From the NCBI RefSeq assembly GCF_001421565.1, contig NZ_LMKQ01000004.1, positions 62,001 to 126,000 of the forward strand: a DNA stretch of 64,000 nt, written 5' to 3'. Source of the stretch: Agromyces sp. Leaf222. GTDB taxonomy: Bacteria > Actinomycetota > Actinomycetes > Actinomycetales > Microbacteriaceae. Shown here piece by piece: positions 7,716 through 25,333 of this stretch. Position numbers and translations under genes: made by a program. The stretch's first letter is position 1, and each line of letters begins with the position of its first letter. The notes beneath the pieces were generated by a model. That model was not told where the DNA came from. It worked only from the letters and a program-made list of their open reading frames with translations, and ran no database searches.

Positions 7716-7751
7716 TGTACGCGGTGTCGAACATGCAGGCACGAGTGTACA
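7716..7751. promoter_or_regulatory. Two-part operator, copy A (PucR gene promoter)
   Basis: TGTACGCGGTGTCGA (7716-7730) is followed after 13 nt by AGTGTAC (7744-7750). The identical pair, with 14 nt between, occurs at 25298-25333 upstream of gabT. The outer ends TGTAC and GTACA are inverted. On the minus strand the second half overlaps a TACACT -10 box for the PucR gene, consistent with autorepression. Confidence 0.6.
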
Positions 7752-7811
7752 GGCGGGCCTTGTGCGGTCGGCCGAACGCCGGCACGGCCGAGCGGGGTGC
7801 TGGGCGGCCGA

Positions 7812-7847
7812 CCGGCGGGTCGATCGATGCGCCGACCGACCCGCCGG
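7812..7847 (-). terminator. Hairpin after kynU
   Basis: Arms CCGGCGGGTCG (7812-7822) and CGACCCGCCGG (7837-7847) pair perfectly around a 14-nt loop. It begins 6 nt beyond the kynU stop and probably ends the nine-gene catabolic operon before the PucR gene. There is no clear U-run. Confidence 0.6.
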
Positions 7848-7852
7848 GGCTC

Positions 7853-9136
7853 TCAGGTGACGGTGCCGCGGCGTGCGAAGCGCGGCTCGCGCCAGACCTC
7901 GGTCGCGAGGATGTCCTCGAGTGCGGCCACCGCATCCCACGCGTCGACATGCGAGGTGTAGAGCGGCGTGAAGCCGAAGCGCATCAGGTCGGGCGCGCGG
8001 AAGTCGCCGATGACGCCCCGCTCGATGAGCGCCTGCATGACCGAGTACCCGTCGGCGTCGCCGGCGCGGAGCGCGACCTGGCTGCCGCGCCGCGCCGACT
8101 GCCGGGGCGTGACGACCTCGACGCCCCACTGGGCCAGCCGGGAGTCGACGAGCGAGATGAACAGCTCGGTGAGGCGGAGGCTCTTCTCTCTGAGCAGGTC
8201 GAGGTCGACGCCGCTCCAGATGTCGAGGCTGGCCTCGAGGCCCGCCAGCGCGAGCAGCTGGGGCGTGCCGACGCGGAAGCGGGTGACGCCGGGCGCCGGT
8301 GCGTAGTCGACGTCGAAGTCGAACGGCTTCGCGTGCCCGTGCCAGCCGGTGATCGCCGGCCGCGCTGCGGCCTGGTGCCGCCCGGCGACCCAGAGGAACG
8401 ACGGCGAGCCCGGGCCGCCGTTGAGGTACTTGTACGTGCAGCCGATCGCGAAGTCCGCGCCGGCGCCGTTCAGGTCGACGGGCACGGCCCCGACGCTGTG
8501 GCAGAGGTCCCACACCATGATCGCGCCGGCCTCGTGCACGCGGCGCGTGACCTCGTTCATGTCGTACATGCGGCCCGTGCGGTAGTTCACGTGGGTGAGC
8601 ACGACGACCGCGACGTCCGCGTCGAGCACGTCGTCGAGGGTCGGTCCGTCGTCGGCGATCAGGCGGCGCTCGAGCGGCCGGCCGGGCTCGCCGAGCAGCT
8701 CCTGCACCGACTCGAGCACGTAGAGGTCGGTCGGGAAGTTGCCGCGCTCCGAGACGATCACCCGGCGCTCCGGCCGCAGCCGGGCCGCCGCCACCGCCAC
8801 CTGGAACAGGCTCGACGACGTCGAGTCGCCGAGCACGACCTCGCCCGCCGCCGCGCCGATCAGCGGCGCGATGCGGTCGCCGAGGTCGAGCGGCTTCGTG
8901 AACCAGCCGGCGTCGTTCCAGCTGCGGATCAGCCCGGTGCCCCACTCCTCGGTGATCACGCGCTGCACGTGCGCCGCCGTCGCACGCGGCAGGGCGCCGA
9001 GCGAGTTGCCGTCGAGGTAGACGACCCCGTCGGGCAGGTCGAACAGGTCGCGGAACCCGGCGAGCGGGTCGGCGGCGTCGAGGGCCGTGCAGGTCGCACG
9101 GTCGATCACGTGGGGGATGGAGGGGGCGATGCTCAT
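7853..9136 (-). CDS. kynU: Kynureninase
   Basis: A 427-residue PLP enzyme that cleaves kynurenine or 3-hydroxykynurenine to (3-hydroxy)anthranilate plus alanine. Family landmarks are YLDGNSLG near residue 41, GLIRSWNDAGWF, the phosphate-binding STSSSLFQ, VNYRTGRMYD, WDLCHSVGAVPVDL and the PLP lysine in GCTYKYLNGGPGS (about K236). It is the last gene of the operon, 46 nt after the ACMSD gene. The spacer contains a tandem duplication of GTGGTCAGAGC. The downstream genes for 3-hydroxyanthranilate suggest that 3-hydroxykynurenine is the true substrate. No kynurenine 3-monooxygenase, tryptophan dioxygenase or formamidase gene is in the window. Confidence 0.95.
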   Translation of the reverse strand: MSIAPSIPHVIDRATCTALDAADPLAGFRDLFDLPDGVVYLDGNSLGALPRATAAHVQRVITEEWGTGLIRSWNDAGWFTKPLDLGDRIAPLIGAAAGEVVLGDSTSSSLFQVAVAAARLRPERRVIVSERGNFPTDLYVLESVQELLGEPGRPLERRLIADDGPTLDDVLDADVAVVVLTHVNYRTGRMYDMNEVTRRVHEAGAIMVWDLCHSVGAVPVDLNGAGADFAIGCTYKYLNGGPGSPSFLWVAGRHQAAARPAITGWHGHAKPFDFDVDYAPAPGVTRFRVGTPQLLALAGLEASLDIWSGVDLDLLREKSLRLTELFISLVDSRLAQWGVEVVTPRQSARRGSQVALRAGDADGYSVMQALIERGVIGDFRAPDLMRFGFTPLYTSHVDAWDAVAALEDILATEVWREPRFARRGTVT

Positions 9137-9182
9137 GGCGGAGTCGGTCCTTCGCGGCTCGGGGGAGGTGGTCAGAGCGTGG

Positions 9183-10175
9183 TCAGAGCGCCAGGAAGCG
9201 CCGGGCGTTGCCGTGGCGGATGGCCGCCTTCTGCTCGTCGGTGAGGAAGTCGGCGCGCTCGATCACGGCGCCGACGGGCCGTTCGCCGAGCGGGTAGGGG
9301 TAGTCGCTGCCGAGCATCACCTGCTCGGCGCCGAGGGTGTCCACGAGCAGGCGCAGCGCCGCGGGGTCGAACACGACCGAGTCGACGCTGAAACGGTCGA
9401 GGTAGCCCGACGGCGGCAGCTCGCTGACGCCCACCAGGTCGGGCCGGCGGTGCCACGCGTTCTCGAACCGGCCGAGCCAGAACGCGAACGAACCGCCGCC
9501 GTGGGCGAAGCCGATGCGGAGCGTCGGCGGCACCCGGTCGAAGACGCCGCCGAGGATCATCGCGATGATCGACAGGTGCGTCTCGGCGGGCATGCCGGTG
9601 AGCCAGCGGGCCATCCACCGGTCGAGTCGGGGCGAGCCCGGCATGTCCCACGGGTGCACGAGCACGGGCACCCCGCGATCCGCGCAGTGCTGCAGGAACG
9701 TGACGATGCCCTCGTGATCGAGGTCGCGGTCGCCGACGTGGTTGCCGATCTCGACGCCGCGGTGCCCGGCGGCGATCGCGCGATCGAGCTCGGCGCACGC
9801 GGCATCCGTGTCCTGCAGCGGCACCTGCGCGAACGGCAGCAGTCGGTCGGGTGCGGGGGAGCAGAGCTCGAGCGTGAGGTCGTTGAAGATGCGCGCGACC
9901 TTCGCGGCCTGGTCGCCCGGCTTCTCGTACGAGAAGAACACCGGCGTCGGCGAGACGACCTGGATGTCGACGTCGTCGGCGTCCATCTCGGCGAGGCGCG
10001 TCTCGGCGTCCCAGCAGCTCTCGTCGATGCGGCGGAACTCGCTCGAGCCGAGCATGATCATGGCCTCGCGCTCGGAGTCCACGCGGAGCCACGGCCAGGA
10101 GCCCGGCCCGACCTGCGTCGACAGGTCGGGCCAGCCCTTGGGCACGGCATGCGTGTGGATGTCGATCGTGCCCAC
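9183..10175 (-). CDS. nbaD: 2-Amino-3-carboxymuconate 6-semialdehyde decarboxylase
   Basis: A 330-residue amidohydrolase-fold enzyme that decarboxylates the ring-cleavage product of 3-hydroxyanthranilate before it can close to quinolinate. Zinc ligands are visible in DIHTHAVP near the N-terminus, in LVHPWDMPG (about residue 170), in FAHGGGSFAFWLGRF (about 220) and in GSDYPYP (about 290). These are typical of ACMSD/gamma-resorcylate decarboxylase relatives. The GTG start at 10175 gives the expected N-terminus MGTIDIHTHA and lies 5 nt after the stop of the dioxygenase gene. Its position right after 3-hydroxyanthranilate dioxygenase makes the specific call firm. Confidence 0.93.
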   Translation of the reverse strand: MGTIDIHTHAVPKGWPDLSTQVGPGSWPWLRVDSEREAMIMLGSSEFRRIDESCWDAETRLAEMDADDVDIQVVSPTPVFFSYEKPGDQAAKVARIFNDLTLELCSPAPDRLLPFAQVPLQDTDAACAELDRAIAAGHRGVEIGNHVGDRDLDHEGIVTFLQHCADRGVPVLVHPWDMPGSPRLDRWMARWLTGMPAETHLSIIAMILGGVFDRVPPTLRIGFAHGGGSFAFWLGRFENAWHRRPDLVGVSELPPSGYLDRFSVDSVVFDPAALRLLVDTLGAEQVMLGSDYPYPLGERPVGAVIERADFLTDEQKAAIRHGNARRFLAL

Positions 10176-10180
10176 CCGGT

Positions 10181-10705
10181 TCAGCCCTTGCCGGGGTGGA
10201 CTTCGCCGCAGTTCGGGCAGGTTCGTCCCGCTTCGCTCTCGTAGAAGTCGCGGAACACGGGCGGGAGGTCCTCGACGATGTCGCGGACCTGCAGCTCGAC
10301 CTCGTGCACCTTCGTGTTGCAGTTCGGGCAGAACCAGGCGAACTTCTCGAGCGTGCCCTCCTCGCGGATGCGCTCGATGACGATGCCGATCGAACCGGCC
10401 TCGGGGCGCTGGGGGGAGTGGAACACGTTGCCGGGCAGCAGCCACATCTCGCCCTCGCGGATGTCGATGCGCTGCGGGCCGTCCTCGGTCTGGATGTTCA
10501 CGTGCATGTTGCCGCGGTACTGGTAGAACCACTCCTCGTACGGGTCGAAGTGGAAGTCGGTGCGCTGGTTCGGGCCGCCGACGACCTGCACGATGAAGTC
10601 GCCCATCGGCGCCCAGGCCGCCTTGTTGTTCACCGGAGGCTTCAGCAGGTGCTCGTGCTCGCGGATCCAGGCCGGGAAGTCGATCACGGGTGGGATGGTG
10701 GTCAT
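10181..10705 (-). CDS. nbaC: 3-Hydroxyanthranilate 3,4-dioxygenase
   Basis: A 174-residue cupin that opens the ring of 3-hydroxyanthranilate with O2, using Fe(II). The metal site is in [17 protein letters not shown] (about residues 46-62), and a second cupin strand has the histidine in [13 protein letters not shown]. The bacterial form also carries a rubredoxin-like C-terminal iron site, seen here as [10 protein letters not shown] (about 125) and [10 protein letters not shown] (about 163). A good AGGAGG site precedes the start. The gene overlaps the 2-aminomuconate deaminase stop by 4 nt, which suggests translational coupling. Confidence 0.96.
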
Positions 10706-11181
10706 GATTCCTCCTTGATGGTGGTGGTGCTGGAGTTCGTGATGGCGTTCGGGTCTCGTCGGGCGATCGCCTGGATCTCGATGAGCAGCAGCGGATGCGG
10801 CAGCTGGTGCACGGCGACCGTCGTGCGTGCCGGGCCCGTCTCGTCGAAGTACTCGGCCCAGACCGCGTTGTAGCCGGCGAAGTCGTTCATGTTCACGAGG
10901 TAGGTCGTCGCCTGCACGAGGTCGTCGAGGCTCGCCCCTGCCGCGGCGAGCACGCCCCGGATGTTCTCGAGCACCGCGCGCGTCTGCGCCGCGATGTCGA
11001 GGGTCGTGGCGCCGAACTCGTCGACCTCGGCGCCCTCGAACGTGTTGTCCGCGCGCCGGCTGCTGGTGCCCGAGACGTAGATCAGGTCGCCGGCGACCTT
11101 CACGTGCGGGAACCGGCCGCGCGGGGTCGCCCTGCCCTCGACCGTGATGGCGCCGCTCCCGGCCTGCGTCGCGTCAGTCAT
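10702..11181 (-). CDS. nbaF: 2-Aminomuconate deaminase (RidA family)
   Basis: A 159-residue RidA/YjgF-family protein. In nba-type clusters this member hydrolyses 2-aminomuconate to 4-oxalocrotonate and ammonia. Family features are [13 protein letters not shown], the conserved arginine region in the middle, [20 protein letters not shown] and the C-terminal [12 protein letters not shown]. The specific function is taken from context: the genes for the enzymes before and after it in the pathway surround it. It overlaps the decarboxylase gene by 8 nt. An ordinary RidA enamine deaminase is the alternative, but is less likely here. Confidence 0.85.
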
Positions 11182-11971
11182 GCGCCCCGCCCCCGAATCG
11201 CATCCAGACGCTCCCGAGTCCGGTGACGGATGCCGCGACGTGGGCGCCGTGGGGCAGCGGCACCGCCGCGGTGGCGGCCCCGGCGAGCAGCACCATGCCG
11301 GCGCGGAGCTCGAAGCCGTGGGCTCGCGACATCCGCAGCGCCGTGGCGAGGGCCCGATCGGGGTGGCCGAGGATCGCCGCGGTCGACCCGGTGGCGCAGA
11401 GGCGCCCGTCGACCTCGAGGCGGACGCCCCGGTTGCCGAGGTCGCCTGCCGTGGCGGCATCCGTCCATGGGCCGATCACGTAGGCGGCGGCCGAGGTGTT
11501 GTCGGCGACGACGTCTTCGAGGTCGAACCGGAAGTCGAGGTAGCGGGAATCGATGATCTCGAGGGCGGGCGCGACCCCGACGACGGCCTGGCGGAGCGCG
11601 GCATCGTCGGCGTCCGCCGGCAGGTCGGAGCCGATGAGGTAGGCCAGCTCGGGTTCGATCCGCGGATGGATGAACCCGGCGGCGTCGAGCAGGCCGCCGT
11701 CCTCGACGCGCATCCGCTCGGTCACCGAGCCGATGATGACGTCGTCGACGCCCATCTGGATCGCCTTCGCCCGACTCGTGAAGCCCAGCTTGACCCCCGA
11801 GATGCGGTCGCCGCGGGAGGTGCGGCGCCCGACGAGGAGGTGCTGCACCGCGTAGGCGTCGGCGAGGGTCATCGCCGCGCCCGACTGCGACACGGGTGCG
11901 CCGTGCAGCTGGGCGGCGTCGAGGGTCTCCGCCAGCGCGGTGAGGCCCTCGCGGGGCGCGGTGCCGGTCAT
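11174..11971 (-). CDS. nbaG: 4-Oxalocrotonate decarboxylase
   Basis: A 265-residue member of the fumarylacetoacetate hydrolase/hydratase superfamily. It should convert 4-oxalocrotonate to 2-oxopent-4-enoate with Mg2+. The segment [19 protein letters not shown] and [15 protein letters not shown] (metal-binding glutamates) is typical of the XylI/DmpH group rather than the XylJ/MhpD hydratases. The operon has a second superfamily member at 14042-14923 that looks like the hydratase, so the pair divides the two steps. In meta-cleavage systems the two proteins usually form a complex. It overlaps the aldolase gene by 4 nt. Confidence 0.85.
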
Positions 11972-13110
11972 CGCACGGGCTCCAGCGCGGCGTCGCGGGC
12001 GGCGTCGCGGGCGGCATCGCGGGCGGCGACGAGGTCGAGCGCGACGTCGACGATCATGTCCTCCTGGCCGCCGACCATGCGGCGGCGCCCGAGCTCGATG
12101 AGGATGGCCCTGGCGTCGAGCCCGTAGCGCTCGGCTGCCCGCTCGGCGTGCAGCAGGAAGCTCGAGTAGACGCCCGCGTAGCCGAGGGTGAGGGTTTCGC
12201 GGTCGACGCGCACCGGGCGTCGTTGCAGCGGGCGGATCAGCTCCTCCGCGGCATCCTGCAGGGCGAAGAGGTCGCAGCCGTGCTCCCAGCCGAGCAGGTT
12301 CGCGACGGCGATGAACGCCTCGATCGGGGTGTTGCCGGCGCCCGCGCCCTGCCCGGCGAGCGACGCGTCGACGCGGAGGGCGCCGTGCTCGACGGCGGTG
12401 ATGCTGTTCGCGACGCTCAGCGAGAGGTTCTCGTGGGCGTGGATGCCGATCTGGGTGCCGGGGTCGAGCACCTCGCGATACGCGTCGATGCGTTCGGCGA
12501 CGTCGTGCATCGTCAGGCGTCCGCCCGAGTCGGTGACGTAGACGCAGTTGGCGCCGTACGACTCCATGCGCTTCGCCTGCTCGGCGAGGCCGCGCGGGTC
12601 GTTCAGGTGGCTCATCATGAGGAACCCCGAGACGTCCATGCCGTGATCGCGGGCCCAGCCGATGTGCTGGGCGGCGACGTCGGCCTCGGTGCAGTGCGTC
12701 GCGACGCGCACGCTCTGCACGCCGAGGTCGCGGGCGCGGGCGAGGTGGTCGATCGTGCCGATGCCGGGCAGGATCAGCGTCGTCAGCTTCGACCGCTCGA
12801 GCACCGAGGCCGCGGCCTCGATCCAGCGCTCGTCGGTGCTCGCGCCGTGGCCGTAGGCGACGCTCGACCCGCCGAGCCCGTCGCCGTGGGCGACCTCGAT
12901 GGCGTCGACCCCCGCCGCCTCGAGCGCGGCCGCGATGTCGCGCACCTGCTCGACCGAGTAGCGGTGCGCGACGGCGTGCATGCCGTCGCGCAGGGTGACG
13001 TCCTGCACGTAGACGCGCGGGGCGTTCGCGGCAGTCGCGGCAGTCGCGGCAGTCGGGTCGGTCGGGTCGGTCGGGGTCGACCGGGTCGACGGGGTCGTGG
13101 CGGCGGTCAT
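11968..13110 (-). CDS. mhpE: 4-Hydroxy-2-oxovalerate aldolase
   Basis: A 380-residue HMGL-like TIM-barrel aldolase that splits 4-hydroxy-2-oxovalerate to pyruvate and acetaldehyde. The metal/substrate motif [17 protein letters not shown], then [33 protein letters not shown] and the C-terminal [10 protein letters not shown] match MhpE/DmpG. The first 30 residues are a low-complexity Thr/Ala/Pro tract encoded by repeated ACCGAC and GCGGCAGTC-like units, so the real start may be later. The last residues are also an alanine-arginine repeat (AARD four times). The enzyme normally channels acetaldehyde to the dehydrogenase encoded next to it, and the two genes overlap by 4 nt. Confidence 0.94.
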
Positions 13111-14045
13111 GCGATGGCTCCCGTTCGGCCGGCGACGAGGCGCTCGGCGGTGCGCAGTGCCGCGCTCGTCATGATGTCGAGGTTGCCCGCGTACTCCGGA
13201 AGGTAGTGCCCGGCGCCCGCGACCTCGAGGAGGACGGTGACCTTCGTGCCCCGGAACGGGCGGCCGAGGGCCGGCACGAACGCCTCGTCGACCGCCTCGA
13301 ACTGCACCTGCTGCTTGAGGCGGTAGCCGCCGACGTAGCCCTGCACATCGGAGACCATGGCGTCGACCGACGCGCGCACGGCCTCTCGATCGAGCTCAGC
13401 GGCCCCACGCTCGACGAGGCAGAAGACGGTGTCGCGCATGATGAGCGGCGGGTCGGCGGGGTTCAGCACGATGATCGCCTTGCCGTGGTCGGCGCCGCCG
13501 ATGCGCTCGATCGCGCGCGAGGTGGTCTCGGTGAACTCGTCGATGTTCGCCCTCGTGCCGGGCCCGGCCGACTTCGAGGCGATCGAGGCGACGATCTCGG
13601 CGTAGGCGACGGGCGCGACGCGCGAGACGGCGGCGACCATCGGCACGGTGGCCTGACCACCGCACGTCACCATGTTCACGTTCGTGGCCCCGAGGTGCTC
13701 CTCGAGGTTGACGACGGGCACGACGTAGGGGCCGATCGCGGCGGGCGTGAGGTCGACCATGATGCGGCCGCTGTCGCGCACGAGGGCGTCGTTGCGGGCG
13801 TGGGCGCCGGCGGAGGTCGCGTCGAACACGAGCTCGACGTCGGCGAACTCGGGCATGCGCAGGAGGCCGTCGACCCCCTCGTGGGTCGTCGCGACCCCGA
13901 GGCGGCGCGCACGGGCGAGCCCGTCGGAGTGCTCGTCGATGCCGACCATGGCGACGGCGCGGAGCGTGGTCGAGAGCCGCTTGACCTTGATCAGCAGGTC
14001 GGTGCCGATGTTGCCGGAGCCGATGATGGCGATGCCCGCGCTCAT
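13107..14045 (-). CDS. mhpF: Acetaldehyde dehydrogenase (acylating)
   Basis: A 312-residue enzyme that oxidises acetaldehyde with CoA and NAD+ to acetyl-CoA. The Rossmann fingerprint [11 protein letters not shown] is at the N-terminus, the catalytic cysteine is in [13 protein letters not shown] (about C128), and [16 protein letters not shown] and [13 protein letters not shown] are conserved MhpF/DmpF segments. It pairs with the aldolase encoded downstream as a channelling complex. The start overlaps the hydratase stop by 4 nt. Confidence 0.96.
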
Positions 14046-14923
14046 GCGGCGGCTCCCTCGCTCAGGGCGCCGGTGAAGTCGGCGCGCACCTCGCCCAGGC
14101 CGTCGAGCCGCGCGGTGTACACGCCCGGTCCGGTGACGGCGACCATCGGGCCGAGTGCGCCCGAGAGGATCACCTCTCCGGCGCGCAACGGGCGACCGTG
14201 CCTGGCGACCGCTCTCGCGAGCCAGGCCACCGCGATGACGGGGCTGCCGAGGCAGGCCGCGCCCGATCCGGTCGAGACCGTCTCGCCGTCGTGCTCGAGG
14301 CTCATGCCGACGGCCGTGAGGTCGAGTCCGTCGAGCGAGCGCGGGGTCGTGCCGAGCACGACGGCACCGCTCGAGGCGTTGTCGGCGACGGTGTCGGCGA
14401 TGCGGATGTCCCAGCCGGCGATGCGCGAGTCGACGACCTCGATCGCCGGCAGCACGAAGGCGGTGGCGCGGATCACGTCGGCGACGTGCGTCGTGGGGGA
14501 GTCGAGGTCGCGGCCGAGCACGAAGGCCACCTCGGCCTCGACGCGGGGCTGCAGGAAGCGCGAGAGGTCGAGCGGCTCGCGGTCGCCGAGCACCATGTCG
14601 TCGAGCAGCACGCCGTAGTCGGGCGTGAAGACGCCGAACTGGGCCTGCACCGCCGGCGAGGTGAGGCCGATCTTGCGGCCGACGATGCGCCGGCCGTCGA
14701 CGAGGCGCCGCTCGATGCCGAGCGACTGCACGGCGTACGCGGCGTCGAGGTCGTCGTCGCCGATGAGGTCGCGCACGGGCTCGCACGGGGTTCCGGATGC
14801 CGCGGCGGACCGCAGGCGCTCGGCGGCGGTCCGCACGGCGGGCGGCGTCGTCGATGATGCGGCGGACGCGGCATCCGCCTCGGGCCATTCGCCAGGCCAG
14901 GCCGGTGAGGTCTGGCCGCTCAC
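14042..14923 (-). CDS. mhpD: 2-Oxopent-4-enoate (2-keto-4-pentenoate) hydratase
   Basis: A 293-residue member of the MhpD/XylJ hydratase family that adds water to 2-hydroxypenta-2,4-dienoate to give 4-hydroxy-2-oxovalerate. Typical segments are [37 protein letters not shown] (metal-binding glutamates) and [24 protein letters not shown]. The N-terminus is about 30 residues longer than usual and rich in Ser/Ala/Pro. The GTG start at 14923 overlaps the TGA of the dehydrogenase gene, so coupled translation is likely. Confidence 0.9.
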
Positions 14924-16440
14924 AGCTGCACGCACACGTTCGTCGGCTCGGTGTAGAACCCGAGCGAGTGGTGCCCGCCCTCGCGGCCGATGCCCGAGAG
15001 GCCGACGCCGCCGAAGGGGCTGCGCAGGTCGCGCAGGTACCAGGTGTTGACCCACGACATGCCCACGCGCATGCGCTGGGCGACGCGGTGACCGCGGGTC
15101 AGGTCGCGGGTCCAGGTGACGGCGGCGAGGCCGTAGTCGGTGTCGTTCGCGAGCGCGATCGCCTGCTCCTCGGTGTCGAACGGGATCAGCGTGGCGACGG
15201 GGCCGAAGATCTCCTCGCGCACCGTGCGGTGCGAGTTGTCGAGCCCGGAGAGCAGGGTCGGCTCGATCCAGAATCCGGCGTCGAGTCCGTCGCCGAGGGT
15301 CGGGATGCCGCCGCCGGCGAGCACCGTGGCGCCCTCCTGCCGTGCGAGCTCGTAGTACGAGAGCACCTTCTCGCGATGCTGACGCGAGATGAGCGGACCT
15401 GTGGTCGTCGCGGGGTTCTCGGGCCGGCCGAGGCGCAGGCGCGCGGCTTGCTCGGCGAGGCCGGCGGCCACGTCGTCGAAGATCGCCCGCTCGACGTAGA
15501 TGCGCTCGGTGCAGAGGCACACCTGCCCGGTGTTCAGGTAGGTGGATCGGGCGAGCCCGGCGATCGCCGCGTCGAGGTCGGCGTCGGCGAAGACGACGGC
15601 CGCGTTCTTGCCGCCGAGTTCGAACGAGACCGGGCGCACGCGAGGGGCCACGGCCCGCATGATCGCCGACCCGGTGGAGGACTCGCCCGTGAAGGTGACG
15701 CCGTCGATGCCCGGATGCGTCGTCAGGAACTCGCCTGCGGAGTCCGCGCCGAACCCGTGCACGACGTTGACGACGCCGGCGGGGAGGCCGGCCTCGATGA
15801 GGATCTCGGCGAGGAGGGTCGCCGAGGACGGCGTCTCCTCCGACGGCTTCACGACCACGGCGTTGCCGGAGGCGAGCGCCGGCGCGAGCTTCCACGTGAG
15901 CAGCAGGAGCGGGAGATTCCACGGCACGATCACGGCGACCACGCCGAGCGGCTTGCGCACGGCGTAGTTCAGGGCGCGACGTCCGTCGGGGAACTCGGTC
16001 AGGTAGGAGTCGAGGCCCGCGGCCGAGACGACGTCGGCGAAGGCGCGGAAGTTCGCGGCGGCCCTGGCGACGTCGAGGTCGCGGGCGAGGGCCTCCGGCT
16101 TGCCGGTGTCGCCCACCTCGGCGGCGACGAGGTCGTCGAACCGGCGTTCGATGCCGTCGGCGATGCGTCGCAGGATCGTCGCGCGCTCGCCCACCGTCAT
16201 CCGGCCCCATGGGCCCTCGAGCGCGGCGCGGGCCGAGGCGACGGCGAGGTCGACCTCGCGGCGTCCGGCCTCGTGCACCTCGGCGACGTGCGAGCCGTCG
16301 GTGGGGTCGAGCTTGGCGAACGTGCGCACGCCGTCGACGGGCTCGCCGCCGATGAAGTTGCGCAGTTGGCGGGTCGCGCGGTCGCTCGGCTGGGGGGCTT
16401 GGGCCGTATCAGGCAGCGACGTCGTCGTCCGGGTGGTCAT
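14920..16440 (-). CDS. nbaE: 2-Aminomuconate 6-semialdehyde dehydrogenase
   Basis: A 506-residue aldehyde dehydrogenase, the first gene of the kynurenine operon. Catalytic cysteine is in [14 protein letters not shown] (about C308), the general-base glutamate in [13 protein letters not shown] (about 270), and the cofactor/substrate region is [20 protein letters not shown]. Sequence style matches the 2-hydroxymuconic/2-aminomuconic semialdehyde dehydrogenases (DmpC/NbaE). Context with the ACMSD decarboxylase favours the amino form as substrate. Its ATG lies only 6 nt after a predicted -10 box, implying a leaderless operon mRNA. Confidence 0.92.
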
Positions 16441-16446
16441 GCGATC

Positions 16447-16475: not shown

Positions 16476-16479
16476 ATAC

Positions 16480-16497: not shown

Positions 16498-16509
16498 TGC
16501 CCCCACGGC

Positions 16510-16515: not shown

Positions 16516-16523
16516 TCCGAAGC

Positions 16524-17489: not shown

Positions 17490-17615
17490 TATGCCCGAAC
17501 GGTCATGGCTCCGAGCCGGATAGTCATTGGACAGCATCGGTCGCTCTGGCGACGCTGGGATGAACGACGCCCCCTGCGTCGCGACATCCGCTCGACTGCC
17601 CAACCTGGAGGCGAC

Positions 17616-19232
17616 ATGGCCGGCTCTCCGTACGTACCGAACGCGAAGAAGTACAACCCCGACGACTTCGAGCGCGTCGAAGGCGAGCCGGTCGACCCCG
17701 ACCCCGCCAGCTGGGGCATGCAGCCCGACGGCAGCTTCCTGCCGCCGGCACTGACCCCCTCGGTTCCGCGTGACGTGTTCGTCGACTGGCCCGGACAGCT
17801 CGACTACCGCGACCCCGAGACCTACAGCCTGAACGCGACCGCCGAGGCCTTCTACCCGATCGTCGTGAACACGAGCCACACCTGGCAGTCGATCTACGAC
17901 TTGAACGGCCGACGGTACATGCTCCACTACGGCGGCGGCTACGCCTGGAAGGTCTACGACATCACCGACCCGCGCGCCCTCACCGTCGTCGACGAGGAGA
18001 CCCTGCCGTGGAGCGCGCCCCAGTTCGGCGCCGTCACGATCCAGTGGAACGAGGCGCGCGGGAAGTTCATCGCGATCCAGGCGAGCGAGACGCCCCGCTA
18101 CTTCCTGAACGGGCGCGTCGCGAACAAGTGGATCGACGACACCGTCGAGGGCCAGCTGCTCGAGTGGGAGGGCCTTCGCGGCTTCCGTGTCTTCGAGGTG
18201 AACGGCCCGACCCCGCGCGACTGGACCCTGCTCACCGAGGTCTCGACCGACCCGAACCACGGGCCCGACGAGGTGCAGGAGGGCAACGGCGTGCTCGACC
18301 TGCCCGTCTACTACGGCGACAAGTACCTCTTCGTGGCGACCGCGCCCGACAACACGTTCACCAACCAGCCCTACAAGACCACCCTGTGGGCCGCCGGCCA
18401 CGCCGCCTACGACGTGTCCGACCCGGCGAACCCCGTGCGGCTGTCGGACTGGTGGGTTCCCGGCACCCGCCTCGGCGAGGAGGCCGACTCCGAGTACCTC
18501 GCGGGCAACGACCGGTGGAACAACAAGACCTCGTGGTTCGGCTCGCGCATGGGCGTCTTCATGCCGCGCTCGGTCGAGTCCGGCGGCACGTACGCCTACG
18601 CGGCCCAGGGCGGTCAGGGCTTCTTCGTGCTCGACGTCTCGGATCCGACGAACATCCACCACGTCGGATGGTGCGAGCTGCCGTCGAGCGTCGCCGGCAC
18701 TGAGGGCGACAACGTCGACACCACCCAGGTCGAGGAGACCGGGTACGTCTACGTCTCGGGCTACCCGATGAACACCGACTGCTACGAGCCCGCCAAGGAG
18801 ATCTACCAGATCGACGTGAGCGACCCGACGCAGCCGAAGCTCGTGCGCACCCTGCCCCGCCCGGTGCCGCCGGCAACGGCTGCGTTCACCGACTGGGCGC
18901 AGCGGCGCGGATCGTTCGGGCCGAAGCGCTCCGGCTACTTCACGAACACGGGCACCCCGCACGGCGGTGTCGTGCCCTACGCGTTCTACGCAGCCGGCCT
19001 GCAGGTCTTCGACGTGCGCGACCCGGAGGACCCGAAGGTCGGGGCCTACTTCGTGCCGCCGATGGGCCTCAAGGACGACGACGACATGGCCGCCCCGGTG
19101 CACGGCATCTTCGTCGAGTGGGACCGCAACCTCATCTGGGTGTTCGCCAACCACGGCATCTACGCGGTCTCGACGCCGCTGCTCGGCGAGCCCGTCGTGG
19201 GGTTGCCGTCTGCGCCGTCCGACGCCGACTGA
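17616..19232 (+). CDS. LVIVD-repeat beta-propeller-like protein, function unknown
   Basis: A 538-residue protein without a signal peptide. It carries several LVIVD-type repeats, visible as WKVYDITDPRAL (about residue 112), AAYDVSDPANPVRL (about 267), FFVLDVSDPTNIHHV (about 338), IYQIDVSDPTQPKL (about 397) and LQVFDVRDPEDPKV (about 464). Such repeats build beta-propellers. The protein is long for the family and unusually rich in Trp/Tyr/Asp. A GGAGG site 5 nt before ATG 17616 sets the start. It is probably co-transcribed with the DHA2 transporter 25 nt downstream. I know of no assigned function; a role in handling a compound moved by the transporter is only a guess. Confidence 0.75.
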   Translation: MAGSPYVPNAKKYNPDDFERVEGEPVDPDPASWGMQPDGSFLPPALTPSVPRDVFVDWPGQLDYRDPETYSLNATAEAFYPIVVNTSHTWQSIYDLNGRRYMLHYGGGYAWKVYDITDPRALTVVDEETLPWSAPQFGAVTIQWNEARGKFIAIQASETPRYFLNGRVANKWIDDTVEGQLLEWEGLRGFRVFEVNGPTPRDWTLLTEVSTDPNHGPDEVQEGNGVLDLPVYYGDKYLFVATAPDNTFTNQPYKTTLWAAGHAAYDVSDPANPVRLSDWWVPGTRLGEEADSEYLAGNDRWNNKTSWFGSRMGVFMPRSVESGGTYAYAAQGGQGFFVLDVSDPTNIHHVGWCELPSSVAGTEGDNVDTTQVEETGYVYVSGYPMNTDCYEPAKEIYQIDVSDPTQPKLVRTLPRPVPPATAAFTDWAQRRGSFGPKRSGYFTNTGTPHGGVVPYAFYAAGLQVFDVRDPEDPKVGAYFVPPMGLKDDDDMAAPVHGIFVEWDRNLIWVFANHGIYAVSTPLLGEPVVGLPSAPSDAD

Positions 19233-19257
19233 CCGGCCGAGACTGCGAAAGCCGACC

Positions 19258-20787
19258 ATGAACCAGACCTCCAAGCCGTGGCCCGCCCTCTGGGCGCTCG
19301 TCATCGGGTTCTTCATGATCCTCGTCGACACGACGATCGTGTCGATCGCGAACCCGGCGATCCTCGCCGATCTCGACACCGACCTCACGGCGGTGATCTG
19401 GGTGACGAGCGCCTACCTGCTGGCCTACGCGGTGCCGCTGCTCATCACGGGCCGGCTCGGCGACCGCTTCGGCCCGAAGCGGGTCTACCTGGTCGGGCTC
19501 GTGGTGTTCACGCTCGCGTCGCTCTGGTGCGGGCTGTCGGGCGACATCGAGACGCTGATCGCCGCTCGTGCGGTGCAGGGCCTCGGCGCCGCGCTGATGA
19601 CCCCGCAGACGATGGCCGTGATCGCCCGCATCTTCCCGCCGAACCAGCGGGGCGCGGCGATGGGCCTCTGGGGTTCGGTGGCGGGCGTCGCCACGCTCGT
19701 CGGACCGATCCTCGGCGGCGTGCTCGTGGACTCGCTCGGCTGGGAGTGGGTGTTCTTCGTGAACGTGCCGGTCGGCATCGTCGCGTTCGTCGCGGCGTGG
19801 CGGCTCGTGCCGGACCTCGAGACGCACGGCCACCGCTTCGACTGGCTCGGCGTCGTGCTGAGCGCGGTCGGCATGTTCCTCGTCGTGTTCGGCATCCAGG
19901 AGGGCGCGACCTACGACTGGGGCACGATCACCGGCCCGATCACGGTGTGGGGCGTCATCGTCACGGGACTCGTCGTGCTGGTCGGCTTCGTCGTCTGGCA
20001 GGCGTTCAACAAGGCCGAGCCGCTGCTGCCGCTCGGGCTGTTCCGCGACCGCAACTTCGCGCTCTCGAACGTCGCGATCTCGCTGGTGGGCCTCGCGCTG
20101 ACGGCCATGCCGCTGCCGCTCGCGTACTACTTCCAGGTGGCGCGCGGGTTGACGCCGACCCAGGCGGCCCTCATGTTCGTGCCGATGGCCGTGGTCTCCG
20201 GCGTGCTCTCGCCGCTCGTCGGGCGGTTCAGCGACCGCGTCGATCCGAAGTGGGTCGCGCTCGTCGGGCTGTCGACGGCGGCGCTCGCGCTCGGCGGCTA
20301 CGTCGCGCTCCTCGGGCCGGATGTCCCGTACTGGCTGCTGCTGTTCCCCTCGGCAGTGCTCGGGGTCGGCATCTCGGGCGTCTTCGCCCCGCTCGCGTCG
20401 ACCGCGACCCGCAACCTCCCGCGGGCCCAGGCCGGTGCCGGATCGGGCGTCTACACGATGACCAGGCAGGTCGGATCGGTGCTCGGCTCCGCGGCGGTCG
20501 CCGCGCTGATGAGCTACAGCCTCGCCGCGAACCTGCCCGGCGGGGCCGCCGAACAGGCGCGGCCCGGCGAGGGCGGCGCGCTGCCGCCCGAGCTCGTCGC
20601 CGGGTTCTCGGCCGCGATGGCGCAGTCGTTGTGGCTCGCCGTCGGCGGGTTCGCCCTCTGCGCCGTCGTGGTGGCGTTCTTCGCGAAGCCGAAGGTCACC
20701 GTCGGCTGGGGCGAGGCCCCGGCATCCGCCACCGGGGCGGCAGCGCCCGCCACCGCGGCGTCGTCGACCTCGGCCGGCGAACGCTGA
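19258..20787 (+). CDS. DHA2-type MFS transporter
   Basis: A 509-residue proton-coupled transporter with the 14-helix layout of the EmrB/QacA (DHA2) group. Helix 1 contains VDTTIVSIANPAIL, loop 2-3 the MFS motif GRLGDRFGPKRVYL, and helix 5 the antiporter motif WGSVAGVATLVGPILGGVLVD. A C-terminal tail of about 30 residues is rich in Ala/Ser/Thr. Most DHA2 proteins export drugs or other toxic compounds. Because the LVIVD gene precedes it by 25 nt, and the kynurenine genes lie nearby, it might export an aromatic metabolite, but this is not shown by sequence. Confidence 0.85.
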   Translation: MNQTSKPWPALWALVIGFFMILVDTTIVSIANPAILADLDTDLTAVIWVTSAYLLAYAVPLLITGRLGDRFGPKRVYLVGLVVFTLASLWCGLSGDIETLIAARAVQGLGAALMTPQTMAVIARIFPPNQRGAAMGLWGSVAGVATLVGPILGGVLVDSLGWEWVFFVNVPVGIVAFVAAWRLVPDLETHGHRFDWLGVVLSAVGMFLVVFGIQEGATYDWGTITGPITVWGVIVTGLVVLVGFVVWQAFNKAEPLLPLGLFRDRNFALSNVAISLVGLALTAMPLPLAYYFQVARGLTPTQAALMFVPMAVVSGVLSPLVGRFSDRVDPKWVALVGLSTAALALGGYVALLGPDVPYWLLLFPSAVLGVGISGVFAPLASTATRNLPRAQAGAGSGVYTMTRQVGSVLGSAAVAALMSYSLAANLPGGAAEQARPGEGGALPPELVAGFSAAMAQSLWLAVGGFALCAVVVAFFAKPKVTVGWGEAPASATGAAAPATAASSTSAGER

Positions 20788-20872
20788 TGGACGTCGCAGC
20801 GCCCGCCCGCGGCATCCGTACCGTCTCTCTGGATCCAAAATACAGAACTCGCCACCGAAAGTTGAGCAGCGA

Positions 20873-21997
20873 ATGACGCACGAAAGCGGAGGCGGTCGGC
20901 TCGTCGTCGACGGCCTCGAGAAGCACTACGAGCTCGACGGCGCCGAGGTGCCGGTCGTCAAGGGCGTCACCTTCACCATCGAGCCCGGCACGTTCACGTC
21001 GCTGCTCGGTCCGTCGGGCTGCGGCAAGACGACGACCCTGCGATGCGTCGCCGGCCTCGAGAACAGCAACGGCGGCGAGATCTCGCTCGACGGCAACATG
21101 CTCTCCACCGGCACCCGCCACATCTCGCCCGACAAGCGCGACATCGGCATGGTGTTCCAGAACTACGCGATCTGGCCGCACATGAGCGTGTTCGCGAACG
21201 CGATCTTCCCGCTCCAGGTCGCCGCGGCCAAGCTGCCGAAGAAGGAGGCCAGGAAGCGCGCGATGGAGGCGCTCGAGCTCGTGCAGCTCGACGCCTACGC
21301 GCACCGGCCCGCCACCGCGCTCTCGGGCGGACAGCAGCAGCGCCTCGCCCTCGCCCGTGCGCTCGCGCACCGCCCGAAGCTGCTGCTGCTCGACGAGCCG
21401 CTGAGCAACCTCGACGCGAAGCTCCGCGACACGATGCGCAACGAGCTGCGCTCCCTGCAGCAGCGCCTCGGCATCACGGCGCTCTACGTCACGCACGACC
21501 AGTCCGAGGCGCTGTCGATGTCGGACCGCGTGGCCGTGATGAACCAGGGCCGCATCGTGCAGGAGGCGGCACCGCGCGACCTCTACTACCAGCCGGCCGA
21601 TCGCTTCGTGGCCGACTTCGTGGGCCGGGTCAACATGATCCCGGCCGTCGTGCGCGACCGCGACGCCGACGGCGCTGCGCTCGTCGAGGCGTTCGGAACC
21701 CGACTGGTGACGCCGTGCCCGAGCGGCATCGGAACCGGCAGCGACGTCACCGTGACGTTCCGGCCCGAGAGCGTGCGCTGGCACGAGACCCGCCCCGACC
21801 GCCTGAACGTGCTGCCCGCCAGGGTCGTGCGGGTGGAGTTCCTCGGCGAGATCGTCGAGTACGAGGTCGAGGTGCTGCACGGCGAGACCGTCGTCGGCAC
21901 GCTCGTCGCCCGTGGAGCCCCACTGGACTCGCCCGCCACCGGCAGCACCGTCTTCATCGAACTCGCGCCGCACGCCTGCCGCGTGCTGGCGGCCTAG
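20873..21997 (+). CDS. ABC importer ATP-binding protein (Fe3+/polyamine type)
   Basis: A 374-residue ATPase of the family that drives FbpC/PotA-like importers. Walker A is GPSGCGKTTT (about residue 45), the signature is LSGGQQQRLALARAL (about 145), Walker B LLLLDEPLSNLDAKLRD (about 170) and the H-loop YVTHDQSEAL. A TOBE-type domain follows from about residue 285. It starts a three-gene transporter operon. The AT-rich stretch CCAAAATACAGAAC about 30-45 nt upstream (20834-20847) is a probable promoter. Substrate cannot be read from the ATPase. Confidence 0.9.
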   Translation: MTHESGGGRLVVDGLEKHYELDGAEVPVVKGVTFTIEPGTFTSLLGPSGCGKTTTLRCVAGLENSNGGEISLDGNMLSTGTRHISPDKRDIGMVFQNYAIWPHMSVFANAIFPLQVAAAKLPKKEARKRAMEALELVQLDAYAHRPATALSGGQQQRLALARALAHRPKLLLLDEPLSNLDAKLRDTMRNELRSLQQRLGITALYVTHDQSEALSMSDRVAVMNQGRIVQEAAPRDLYYQPADRFVADFVGRVNMIPAVVRDRDADGAALVEAFGTRLVTPCPSGIGTGSDVTVTFRPESVRWHETRPDRLNVLPARVVRVEFLGEIVEYEVEVLHGETVVGTLVARGAPLDSPATGSTVFIELAPHACRVLAA

Positions 21998-22095
21998 CCG
22001 CACCACCCGCACGTGCACCACCCGCACGCCGCGACATCCGCAAGCCGCACCACCCGCACCACCGGAACGCCGCACCATCCGCACCACCCCAAGGA
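21998..22095. repeat. Imperfect CACCACCCGCAC short repeats
   Basis: Between the ATPase and binding-protein genes, units such as GCACCACCCGCAC recur about six times with small changes (ACC/ATC, CCC/CCG). The region has no credible reading frame and is a low-complexity spacer that may reduce or separate expression of the two genes. Confidence 0.55.
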
Positions 22096-22125
22096 AGAGC
22101 GCCACCGAGAAAGGAAACCCGGATC

Positions 22126-23295
22126 ATGACATCACCCACAGCACGGAACGGAATGGTGGCCCTCGCGGCCGCGGGAATGCTGCTGCTCAGCTCCTGCAGT
22201 TCGGCGGGGTCGGCCGCATCCGGCCCCATCGAGCCGTCGGACGGCCCGGTCGAGCTCGCCGCGTGCGATGCCGTCGAGGTCGGCGCGGTCACGCGCTGCG
22301 AGAACTTCTACGACGACTTCTGGCCCGAGATCTCGAAGCAGATGGACGCCCTCTACGAGACGGCGAAGCAGACCGACGGCGGCCGCCTGGTGATCTGGGA
22401 CTGGTACGAGCTCTCGCCCGACGTCATCGCCCAGTTCAACGAGGTCTACCCCGACCTGAAGATCGAGACGCGCGGCCTCACCTACAACCTGTCGTCGGCC
22501 ATCATCTCGGCCAAGGCCACGGGCTCGCGCAACACCGACGTCATCTCGGGCTCCCTCGTGTCGGCGGCGACCATGACCGACGAGGGCTACTGGGCGGATG
22601 TCGACTGGACCGAGTTCGGCGTCCCGTCGGAGTTCTTCACGATCGGCGCCCCCGAGATGCTGCCGGACAGCGTGAACGGCTCGCTCATGCAGGTCAACAC
22701 CGACAAGGCCGAGGCGCCCGACACCCTCGAGGGCCTCCTCGCCCCCGAGTACGCGGGCAAGGTCTCGGTCGCGAGCTACAACGCGAACGTCTTCGCCGGC
22801 TACGGCATGGACCAGGGCGAAGACGCGATGGTCGACCTGATCGGCGAGCTGAAGTCGTCGGGCAACCTCCAGGTGCTCGAGGACCAGGACTCGCCGCTCT
22901 CGAGCGGCGACGTGCCGATCGCGCTCGGCCAGACGCTCTTCAACCCGAACCCGAGCCTGTCGGTCTCGCCCTATGAGGATGCCGGCGTCTTCGCCCAGTT
23001 CTCTGGCGTCAACGTCGACGCGAAGAACCCGGCCGGCGGCATGCTGTGGTCGCTCTGGAACGCGTACAACCCCGACTGGCTCGAGCTGCGCATGACCGAC
23101 GAGCGCTTCTCGACGACGCAGGTGCCGTACCCGGGCCTGCCCACCTCGCTGTTCGACTCGGCCACCGGGCTCATGCAGACCAACTCCACCGCGCTGCTCG
23201 AGGGCCTGCAGGGCGGGGCGATCACCGAGACCGTCGACACCCGCGATGACTGGATCGCCATGATCAACGCCGCCGACGCGGCACTGAACGGATAA
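22126..23295 (+). CDS. ABC importer substrate-binding lipoprotein (Fe3+/polyamine type)
   Basis: A 389-residue exported lipoprotein. After MTSPTARNGM comes a hydrophobic run and the lipobox LLLSSC (cysteine about residue 23). The mature part is a type II binding protein of the family used by ferric-iron and organic-amine importers: RLVIWDWYELSPDVIAQFNE (about residue 85), TDVISGSLVSAATM, NTDKAEAPDTLEGLLAPEYAG. An AAGGAAA site precedes the ATG. The typical tyrosine pair of FbpA iron proteins is not evident, so an organic substrate is possible. Location just before the GABA/putrescine genes hints at an amine but does not prove it. Confidence 0.85.
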   Translation: MTSPTARNGMVALAAAGMLLLSSCSSAGSAASGPIEPSDGPVELAACDAVEVGAVTRCENFYDDFWPEISKQMDALYETAKQTDGGRLVIWDWYELSPDVIAQFNEVYPDLKIETRGLTYNLSSAIISAKATGSRNTDVISGSLVSAATMTDEGYWADVDWTEFGVPSEFFTIGAPEMLPDSVNGSLMQVNTDKAEAPDTLEGLLAPEYAGKVSVASYNANVFAGYGMDQGEDAMVDLIGELKSSGNLQVLEDQDSPLSSGDVPIALGQTLFNPNPSLSVSPYEDAGVFAQFSGVNVDAKNPAGGMLWSLWNAYNPDWLELRMTDERFSTTQVPYPGLPTSLFDSATGLMQTNSTALLEGLQGGAITETVDTRDDWIAMINAADAALNG

Positions 23296-23298
23296 CTC

Positions 23299-25188
23299 GT
23301 GTCACAGGCAGGACGGACCACGAAGGTCGAGCGCACTCGGCCGACCTCGATGAAGATCGCGACGATCATCGCCGGAGCGGTGATCTTCCTCCTCCTCGCG
23401 ATCCCCTTGGCCGTACAGGTGATCACGGCCTTCCGTGGTCCGTTCCTGCCGTTCGGCGTCTCGACCGCGAAGTGGTCGGTCGAGAACTTCGTCACCCTCT
23501 GGAGCCTGCGCGACGACTTCTGGGCCGTGCTCGGCTCGACCGCCGCCTTCGTGGGCGGGTCGACCGTGCTCTCGCTCCTGATGGCGTTTGGGCTGGCCTG
23601 GGTGACGGTGCGCACCGACGCCCCGCTGCGACGCGTGATCTCCGTGCTCGTCGTGGTGCCGTTCATCATTCCGCCGATCGTCAAGGCGCAGGCGTACCTG
23701 CTCATGCTCTCGCCCGAGTCGGGCGTGCTGAACCAGCTCCTGCGCCTGCTGCCGGGCGACCTCGTGATCGACCCCTACTCGTTCGTCACGATGACGGCGA
23801 TCCAGGCGCTCACGAACGTGACCTTCCCGTACCTGATGATCGTGCCGATCCTCACGAGCATGGACGGCTCCCTCGAGGAGTCCGCGCGCGTCTCGGGTGC
23901 CTCGTGGCCCAAGACGCTGCGTCGCGTCACGCTGCCGATGCTCTGGCCCGGCCTGCTCGGCGTGGCCGTGCTCACGTTCATCCTCGGACTCGGCAGCCTC
24001 GAGGTGCCGCTGCTGTTCGGCCAGGAGTCGGGCACGTCGATCTTCGCGCTGAAGCTCTGGAACCTCATCAGCGCCGGCGCGGGGGAGCTGCCGCAGTACG
24101 GGCTCGCGGCGGCCTGGGGATGCGTGTTCCTCGTGATCACGACGATCGCGTTCGTGATCTACCTCCGCGCGACGCGCAACGCCGAGCGGCGCGCCTCGAT
24201 CTCGGGCAAGGGCTTCCGGCCCACGGTCATGAAGCTCGGGCCGTGGAAGGTCCCGGTGATGCTCGCGATCCTCGTCTTCGTGCTGCTCACCGCGATCCTG
24301 CCGCTGTTCGCCCTGCTCTGGTCGGCGATCACGCCCTACCCGATCGCGTTCTCGTTCGAGGCGCTCGCGACGCAGACCCAGTTCGGCTCGTTCGGGGCGG
24401 TGCTCGCCGACCCCGAGTTCTGGGCCTCCCTCGGGCGAACGCTCGTCATCGCCGGCGGCAGCGCCACCATCGCCTGCGTCGCGGCGACGGTGCTCGCCTA
24501 CGGCATCGCGAGGGCCAGGCGCACCGGCTGGACGAAGGCCGTCGACCTCTTCGCCTCGTCGTCGGTCGCGATCCCGGCGGTCATCGCGGGCTTCGCGATG
24601 TTCCTCACGTTCATGGTGATCAACCCGGTGATCCCGCTGGCCGGCACCATCGTGGCGCTGATCCTCGCGTACTCGTACCGCGTGTCGATCGCCTACCGCG
24701 CCGGGTACAGCGCGACGCTGCAGATCCGGATGGAGCTCGAGGAGGCGGCGCTCGTCAGCGGCGCCAGTCCGCTCGAGGGCTTCCGCCGCATCGTCGCCCC
24801 GCTGCTCATGCCGACGGTGTTCGCCGTATGGATCCAGATGTTCGTGCTCGGCACCAACGAGTTCACGCTGCCGGCGTTCCTCGCGACGCCCGAGTCGCGG
24901 CCGCTGTCGGTGTACATGTACGCGATGATCAGCCCGCGGTCGGCGCAGCTCTACCAGCCCGACCAGGGTGCGGCGATGGCGCTGATCTTCACGCTGCTCG
25001 TCTTCGCGATCGGCTACGGGCTGCAGTGGGCCGTCTCGCTCTTCGCCATCGGGCGGGCGAAGCGCCGCAACCCGATCCCCGGCGTCGGAACGGCCGACGT
25101 GGTTCCGTCGGCGCCGCCCGTGGCTCCGGACACCCGCGCGGTCGCCGCGCAGGACCTCGAGGACCGGAGGCAGCTGGCCAGGCGCTGA
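23299..25188 (+). CDS. ABC importer permease, two fused membrane domains
   Basis: A 629-residue permease with two complete MetI-like transmembrane domains in one chain (about residues 15-300 and 310-610), as in FbpB/AfuB-type importers. Each half carries an EAA-like coupling loop: LEESARVSGASWPKTLRRVTLP (about 195; quoted part over two blocks, key residues E, A, G) and LEEAALVSGASPLEGFRRI (about 480). The GTG start lies 3 nt after the binding-protein stop. It completes the ATPase/binding-protein/permease set. The gene is followed by a REP-like repeat at 25195-25277 that may terminate transcription. Confidence 0.9.
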   Translation: MSQAGRTTKVERTRPTSMKIATIIAGAVIFLLLAIPLAVQVITAFRGPFLPFGVSTAKWSVENFVTLWSLRDDFWAVLGSTAAFVGGSTVLSLLMAFGLAWVTVRTDAPLRRVISVLVVVPFIIPPIVKAQAYLLMLSPESGVLNQLLRLLPGDLVIDPYSFVTMTAIQALTNVTFPYLMIVPILTSMDGSLEESARVSGASWPKTLRRVTLPMLWPGLLGVAVLTFILGLGSLEVPLLFGQESGTSIFALKLWNLISAGAGELPQYGLAAAWGCVFLVITTIAFVIYLRATRNAERRASISGKGFRPTVMKLGPWKVPVMLAILVFVLLTAILPLFALLWSAITPYPIAFSFEALATQTQFGSFGAVLADPEFWASLGRTLVIAGGSATIACVAATVLAYGIARARRTGWTKAVDLFASSSVAIPAVIAGFAMFLTFMVINPVIPLAGTIVALILAYSYRVSIAYRAGYSATLQIRMELEEAALVSGASPLEGFRRIVAPLLMPTVFAVWIQMFVLGTNEFTLPAFLATPESRPLSVYMYAMISPRSAQLYQPDQGAAMALIFTLLVFAIGYGLQWAVSLFAIGRAKRRNPIPGVGTADVVPSAPPVAPDTRAVAAQDLEDRRQLARR

Positions 25189-25194
25189 CCTCGC

Positions 25195-25277
25195 GCCGGT
25201 CGAGTAGCGACGAAGGAGCGTATCGAGGCCAGCCGATGCGGATCTCGATACGGCCCTGGCGGGCCTACTCGATCGGC
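25195..25277. repeat. REP-like repeat, family 1
   Basis: Contains CGGTCGAGTAGCGACGAAGG followed by AGCGTATCGAGG, then a partly inverted second unit ending CTACTCGATCGG. CGAGTAG (25201-25207) pairs with CTACTCG (25265-25271), and internal TATCGAG pairs with CTCGATA, giving a long hairpin. Related units lie at 42160-42322 and 42752-42789. Confidence 0.7.
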
Positions 25278-25297
25278 GTTGCCTGCTCGACGGTGCT

Positions 25298-25333
25298 TGT
25301 ACGCGGTGTCGATGAAACGGGTTCGAAGTGTAC
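25298..25333. promoter_or_regulatory. Two-part operator, copy B (gabT promoter)
   Basis: TGTACGCGGTGTCGA (25298-25312) and AGTGTAC (25327-25333), separated by 14 nt, repeat the pair found in the PucR gene promoter (7716-7751). Relative to a predicted start near 25379 the site is centred around -63, a usual activator position. Confidence 0.6.

Follow-up and report, generated by a model that had tools for sequence, protein, structure and literature searches.

In this study, we found that two matching intergenic sites, 17.6 kb apart in a 64,000-nucleotide stretch of the genome of Agromyces sp. Leaf222 (contig NZ_LMKQ01000004.1, positions 62,001 to 126,000; the whole stretch is called the window below), are best read as descendants of a single bidirectional operator-promoter. 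One site lies before a gene for a PucR-family regulator (pucR) and the other before gabT, the gene for gamma-aminobutyric acid (GABA) transaminase. At a probability of roughly 80%, PucR binds both sites, activates gabT and autoregulates (probably represses) its own gene, a reading in which we infer the binder, the start points, the regulatory signs and the inducer. Both genes would have matching sites because they once stood back-to-back and shared one site, before a block of other genes came between them. The operator of this gene pair appears to be new, and so does its recurrent split with a division of labour between the copies; a literature search found neither the operator nor such split bidirectional operators described among the matches listed.

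The two-part site in the window

The elements in question are as follows.

7716..7751, no strand: pucR-side operator copy, from sequence; half-site A 7716-7730, half-site B 7743-7751, GTAC centres 30 bp apart
25298..25333, no strand: gabT-side operator copy, from sequence; half-site A 25298-25312, half-site B GTAC 25330-25333, centres 31 bp apart
6122..7693, minus strand: pucR (gabR-like) regulator with PucR N-terminal, GGDEF-like and PucR C-terminal helix-turn-helix (HTH) domains, from Pfam
7744..7749, minus strand: putative pucR -10 box TACACT, inside half-site B, from conservation
25367..25372, plus strand: putative gabT -10 box TAGCAT, 37 bp past the second GTAC, from conservation
25415..26773, plus strand: gabT, GABA transaminase (NF004714 8.8e-231, TIGR00700 1.2e-187, both above cut-off)

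An earlier note on this DNA had described a two-part site at both places, and it is present as written, at the coordinates and on the strand given there; the gaps between its two parts measure 13 and 14 nt. The genome-wide search which that note proposed as a check also came out in its favour. In the whole genome of 4,428,049 bases, the strict pattern TGTACGCGGTGTCGA-N10..18-GTGTAC has exactly two occurrences, which are these sites before pucR and gabT and not unrelated loci, and its backwards control has none. The looser TGTACRC-N..-GTGTAC again finds these two sites only, and the still looser GTACRYSRNGKC-N16..20-GTAC gives four matches, two of them these sites, with one match for its control.

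The letters themselves are a weaker argument than was first claimed, because simulated windows give such pairs too. The note had held the repeated 15-mer with a nearby shared 7-mer to be very unlikely by chance, which does not follow from the letters alone: 30 third-order Markov simulations produced 55 such cases, about 1.8 per simulation. The real window is GC-rich, repeated 15-mers are common in it, and it holds 87 such pairs. That the site is not a chance product rests instead on its place before these two genes and on its conservation in relatives.

Conservation of the gene pair and its operator

Two collections of relatives were compared, namely the named loci of the 80 best of 249 PucR relatives (Agromyces nearest, then Cryobacterium, Microbacterium and other Microbacteriaceae) and a genus set of 37 genomes. 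A gabT gene divergently adjoins the pucR orthologue at 69 of the 80 loci, while kynU, the kynureninase gene, stands upstream of pucR instead at ten, all of them in Agromyces. One further locus, L114, had no GabT match in the table, yet the letters upstream of its pucR read as a GabT N-terminus. Within the genus set, gabT is adjacent in 21/37 genomes and kynU in 13 (G014 from a fragment), one genome (G017) has a PucR relative that is not beside gabT, and two (G022 and G027) are without an orthologue. G027 had been considered as a gabT-bearing genome without pucR and was dropped, as residues 1-56 are missing from its GabT match, the upstream sequence seems to be unrelated, and its assembly consists of about 810 contigs. 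A regulator gene divergent to gabT, a feature of the PucR-type GabR, is thus found in the relatives, while in the window the block intervenes. These distributions show that pucR and gabT were adjacent and divergent ancestrally. The earlier note had said that the site links two blocks unrelated by position; the sites are indeed shared, and the reason it missed is that the genes were ancestral neighbours and have another block between them now.

Phylogenetic footprinting, the other check that had been proposed, also supported the site. Two TRTAC half-sites 30-31 bp apart were found at 48/52 non-Agromyces loci and in 0/624 control pieces (240-bp coding stretches from the same loci, both strands counted), and the strict GTAC pair at this spacing was found at 36/52. 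Read in the gabT orientation, the 60% consensus of 24 undivided sites runs TGTACGnGnnGTCCA, then GAGTGTAC, whose GTAC begins 31 bp on from the first one, followed by AnGCGGGCGCTGnGGCATCC and CCTAnCATT. The 31-bp GTAC pair is also present in all three of G001, G005 and G006. Two GTAC words 9 bp apart occur as well at 23/52 non-Agromyces loci, nearly all of Microbacterium, and many Microbacterium loci (L111-L142) carry three GTAC words with offsets of 0, 9 and 30 bp, which gives this gene pair an operator of another layout.

Division of labour between the two copies

We compared 15 pucR-side and 15 gabT-side copies from split genomes with 26 undivided copies. The undivided rows do not include G025, which has two operators, nor G001, G005 and G006, which were not represented by a gabT locus in this comparison, nor one duplicate (ISL-38 = G007); G016 and G024 were also left out of the information-per-column comparison, which has 24 undivided rows. 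The gabT-side copy of G014 stands outside the comparison, its stretch being too short.

The operator itself is kept on both sides. The GTAC of the second half-site is present in 15/15 pucR-side, 15/15 gabT-side and 25/26 undivided copies, and half-site A agrees with the consensus at 11 or more of 14 positions in 15/15, 14/15 and 26/26, respectively. The spacing is 31 bp in every gabT-side (15/15) and undivided (26/26) copy and 30 bp in 13/15 pucR-side copies.

The promoter elements are divided between the copies. TACACT, read on the pucR strand, is found in 15/15 pucR-side, 4/15 gabT-side and 22/26 undivided copies (Fisher p = 5e-5, pucR-side against gabT-side). The gabT -10 box TA[GC][CA]AT at 37-38 bp is found in 15/15 gabT-side and 24/26 undivided copies and in 0/15 pucR-side copies (p = 1.3e-8 for 0/15 against 15/15). 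The information per column agrees, with 2.00 bits in GAGT on the pucR side against 0.65 on the gabT side, and 0.60 bits in the gabT -10 zone on the pucR side against 1.30 on the gabT side. Each copy keeps the operator and mainly the promoter that it still serves, so the decay is complementary. Four genomes (G013, G029, G033 and G019) retain, in the pucR-side copy, a word from the gabT promoter that resembles GGCATCC; the word seems common in these sequences and is weak evidence on the extent of the duplication.

Taken together, these data suggest a mechanism in which PucR would bind two half-sites, each centred on GTAC, at a distance of three helical turns. For gabT, with a start point predicted near 25379 from the putative -10 box, they would fall at about -80 and -49, as expected of an activator. 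For pucR, with a start point predicted near 7737, the -10 box would lie inside the second half-site and the first would follow closely after the start point, an arrangement suited to autorepression. GABA or a close metabolite may be the inducer. In this genome and 14 other Agromyces examined, kynU of the block is upstream of pucR, and gabT, where it shares a contig with pucR, is 17-18 kb away; pucR and gabT would each have retained an operator copy, which would then have lost the promoter half no longer needed.

The regulator

The start of pucR was placed at GTG 7693 by the N-terminus conserved among orthologues (xQPTVQTLL / xKPTVQTLL), while the open reading frame (ORF) opens at 7702. Its product belongs to the PucR family by Pfam, with PF07905 at 4.4e-19 (69.4 bits, cut-off 33.5), PF13556 at 3.4e-17 (62.4 bits, cut-off 27) and the GGDEF-like domain PF17853 at 3e-6 (27.9 bits, cut-off 24.5). 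A sequence search of the PDB gave one weak relative, Rv2242, over the C-terminal part. This PucR protein is very probably a functional equivalent of GabR, with its operator predicted at its own promoter and at that of gabT. We speak of a functional equivalent and not of a member of the Corynebacterium glutamicum GabR type because of the GGDEF-like domain. The equivalence proposed in the earlier note is well supported by the divergent gabT neighbour in relatives; its signs of regulation, repression of pucR and activation of gabT, are deduced from the putative -10 positions.

The genome has a second PucR-family gene outside the window (G000:C4:156079-156444), whose PucR domain score is stronger. 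The PucR relative of G017 (G017:C1:2208000-2211500, L195) is about 57% identical, and its divergent neighbour is a gene resembling aldehyde dehydrogenases instead of gabT.

Alternative explanations

Several observations weigh against the proposal of a PucR-bound operator shared by pucR and gabT. A relaxed pattern, run on 27 of the 37 genomes of the genus set, is noisy: 32 of its 80 matches lie at pucR or gabT (in 25/27 genomes) and 48 elsewhere, with 22 matches for the backwards control, and it has no match at pucR or gabT in G011 and G013. We claim no further regulon members from these 48 matches against 22. L110, L114, L128 and L130 lack the TRTAC pair at 30 or 31 bp. The sigma-70 consensus scan matched neither promoter, so both -10 assignments rest on conservation. 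The species are related and the Fisher tests overstate the contrast accordingly; on the PucR tree, TACACT was lost from the gabT side in about five lineages. Relatedness also inflates conservation in the pucR-side set, where six columns inward of half-site A still reach 1.17 bits. The gabT-side copy still reads AGTGTA in the window's own group (G000, G008, G026 and allii), and gabT-side half-site A is weak (10-11/14) in G011, G035 and luteolus. Lastly, in C. glutamicum gabR mRNA rises 4-fold on GABA (PMC7652997), unlike simple autorepression.

The last point leads to a possible but rather unlikely alternative, in which the shared operator has other signs, so that PucR also activates its own gene or represses gabT until GABA arrives. 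It draws on that same 4-fold rise, which is reported (PMC7652997) even with the site placed downstream of the gabR promoter's -10, and which qualifies the autorepression proposed for the window. The geometry speaks against it. Half-sites at -80 and -49 from gabT, and over and downstream of the -10 box of pucR, are the usual positions for activation and repression, respectively, and the uniform 31 bp of the gabT side, against the 30 bp prevailing on the pucR side, fits a stricter, activator-type spacing at gabT.

It is improbable that the operator is real and shared but bound by another regulator, such as the LysR protein of the block or a global regulator, with PucR a mere neighbour. PucR specificity is not readable from sequence, and a LysR gene does sit in the block. 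The operator is nevertheless present where the block is absent, both at the non-Agromyces loci and in divergent Agromyces, and a global regulator fits poorly with a strict site that this genome has before pucR and gabT and nowhere else. The single case of a PucR relative away from gabT, in G017, shows no GTAC pair at 30 or 31 bp within the fetched stretch.

Equally improbable is the idea that the pucR-side copy is a fossil of the duplication, retained for the pucR -10 box and without a regulatory role. The putative -10 box inside half-site B would alone conserve B, and neighbouring columns are partly conserved as well. The evidence against a fossil comes from half-site A, which is not core promoter because it lies downstream of the putative pucR -10 box. 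In the pucR-side copies, half-site A keeps at least 12/14 positions and half-site B keeps GAGTGTAC, each in 15/15, and the information per column is 1.57 bits in half-site A but 0.55 bits in the flank outside it.

A chance resemblance of two GC-rich intergenic stretches, to which the Markov simulations lend some colour, can be dismissed in view of the cross-genus conservation against control pieces and of both copies being kept in split genomes.

The intervening block

The block between pucR and gabT is read as a kynurenine/3-hydroxyanthranilate meta-cleavage set with transporters.

7853..25188, no strand: whole intervening block, about 17 kb, from Pfam and NCBIfam
7853-9136, minus strand: kynU, kynureninase (NCBIfam, above cut-off)
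9183-10532, minus strand: amidohydrolase (domain only or below cut-off; a 2-amino-3-carboxymuconate-6-semialdehyde decarboxylase (ACMSD) role is presumed)
10181-10705, minus strand: 3-hydroxyanthranilate dioxygenase (NCBIfam, above cut-off)
10702-11460, minus strand: RidA-like (domain only or below cut-off)
11174-11971, minus strand: hydratase/decarboxylase-like (domain only or below cut-off)
11968-13110, minus strand: 4-hydroxy-2-oxovalerate aldolase (NCBIfam, above cut-off)
13107-14060, minus strand: acetaldehyde dehydrogenase (NCBIfam, above cut-off)
14920-16440, minus strand: 2-hydroxymuconic-semialdehyde-type dehydrogenase (NCBIfam, above cut-off)
16524-17489, plus strand: LysR
17505-19232, plus strand: LVIVD protein
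about 19267-20787, plus strand: major facilitator superfamily (MFS) transporter
20873-21997, plus strand: ATP-binding cassette (ABC) ATPase
23299-25188, plus strand: ABC permease

The gene order of the block is the same in the window, in G003 and G029 and, over two contigs, in G015; for the part near pucR, the check also covered the split loci of the named relatives. The distance from pucR to gabT is 17.0-18.3 kb in the split genomes (11) where a single contig carries the two genes. Block-type KynU (at least 76% identical) is found in 12 split genomes, G014 and G002, and other matches are near 40%; it is absent from the divergent genomes except G002. We ruled out that the operators belong to the block, as divergent genomes without the block carry them. 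The block has a regulator gene of its own, the LysR gene. In G002 (L202, G002:C1:55000-74500) the kynurenine block lies about 0.79 Mb from pucR, and pucR and gabT are adjacent there. The fetched stretch of this block, which covers its KynU end and not its ABC-transporter end, has two 30-bp GTAC pairs about 1.4-1.6 kb past KynU, neither with a match to half-site A.

Stable hairpins (z -2.9 and -3.5) separate the block from either operator and may insulate pucR and gabT from transcription of the block. Neither resembles an intrinsic terminator with a T run, and a terminator scan found nothing. A long hairpin element (GGTCGAGTAGCGACGAAGGAGCGTATCGAG... GATCTCGATACGGCCCTGGCGGGCCTACTCGATCGGC; window 25193-25279) recurs in intergenic stretches of several Agromyces, and also upstream of pucR in L081, twice in tandem, and in L076. 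It looks like a dispersed repeat.

History of the split

The PucR tree needs at least six changes of block state among its 46 rows, and its four outgroup rows are divergent. The KynU tree (17 rows) groups largely like PucR, with poor deep support. A single clean gain of the block is not borne out by these changes of state, though 13/15 pucR-side copies share the 30-bp spacing, and these trees do not distinguish between gain of the block, its loss and exchange of the locus. G025 (Agromyces mediolanus RA 14A.10; L153 about 4926-5062) has no block, and its pucR and gabT are separated by a tandem pair of operators with 102 bp between them; in G003 and G031, which are closely related to it, the block separates the two operators. 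The origin of the G025 spacer was not found, as among the 20 matches listed those apart from itself cover at most 17 bases.

It seems reasonably probable that the bidirectional operator-promoter underwent duplication, degeneration and complementation, with a self-contained block repeatedly entering or leaving the pucR-gabT gap in Agromyces. Both sides would have kept a full operator and each copy would have shed the promoter half of the departed partner, leaving natural separation-of-function alleles in many species.

Genes on the gabT side

The gene order gabT-gdh-gabD given in the earlier note is borne out by the domains.

26182..28071, plus strand: glutamate/leucine-type dehydrogenase ('gdh'; PF00208 1.7e-72, PF02812 3.6e-55)
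27974..29596, plus strand: gabD-type aldehyde dehydrogenase (PF00171 6.3e-161; TIGR01780 562.6 bits, under its cut-off of 646.35)
29610..31082, plus strand: flavin amine oxidase (PF01593 5.6e-75)

The gdh domains begin at about 26923, and the true start is thus well inside the ORF. The flavin amine oxidase adjoins gabT in many relatives too, and it possibly acts a step earlier, on putrescine or another amine.

Meaning and comparison with known systems

These results propose a likely operator and targets for a PucR family found across Microbacteriaceae, whose members, among the best 120 of 1363 matches, mostly bear the names 'PucR family regulator' or 'purine catabolism regulator'. The split genomes may serve as a natural experiment, separating what the target would need (31-bp spacing and the gabT -10 box) from what the regulator's own gene would need (GAGTGTAC with its -10 box, a 30-bp spacing being tolerated). 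They also suggest that a regulon can appear scattered merely because a block landed inside a shared promoter.

PmfR of Arthrobacter nicotinovorans is a PucR-family activator of methylaminobutyrate genes. Its C-terminal HTH region resembles that of the window PucR, but the latter scores 48.5 bits against the PmfR equivalog model NF045769, far under the cut-off of 800, and is not an orthologue. GabR of Bacillus subtilis does the same job of activating GABA-use genes with a protein of the MocR/GntR type (a winged HTH with an aminotransferase-like domain), a family unrelated to the window PucR.

The closest counterpart is GabR of C. glutamicum (PMC7652997). It is a PucR-type octamer needed for gabTDP expression and for the GABA dependence of gabT, is encoded divergently to gabT, and binds two sites near its own promoter, from -87 to -23, directly upstream of the gabT -35; that study did not identify its co-activator. 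The window PucR shares its family and, in most relatives, the gene order divergent to gabT, and the conserved half-sites predicted at about -80 and -49 would compare with the bound region. C. glutamicum GabR is without the GGDEF-like domain that PF17853 marks in the window PucR. Its sites are two 21-bp inverted repeats, whereas those of the window are two GTAC half-sites 30-31 bp apart, a comparison by description and not by letters. Unlike the pair of C. glutamicum, the gene pair of the window is split by the 17.6-kb block and has an operator at each gene.

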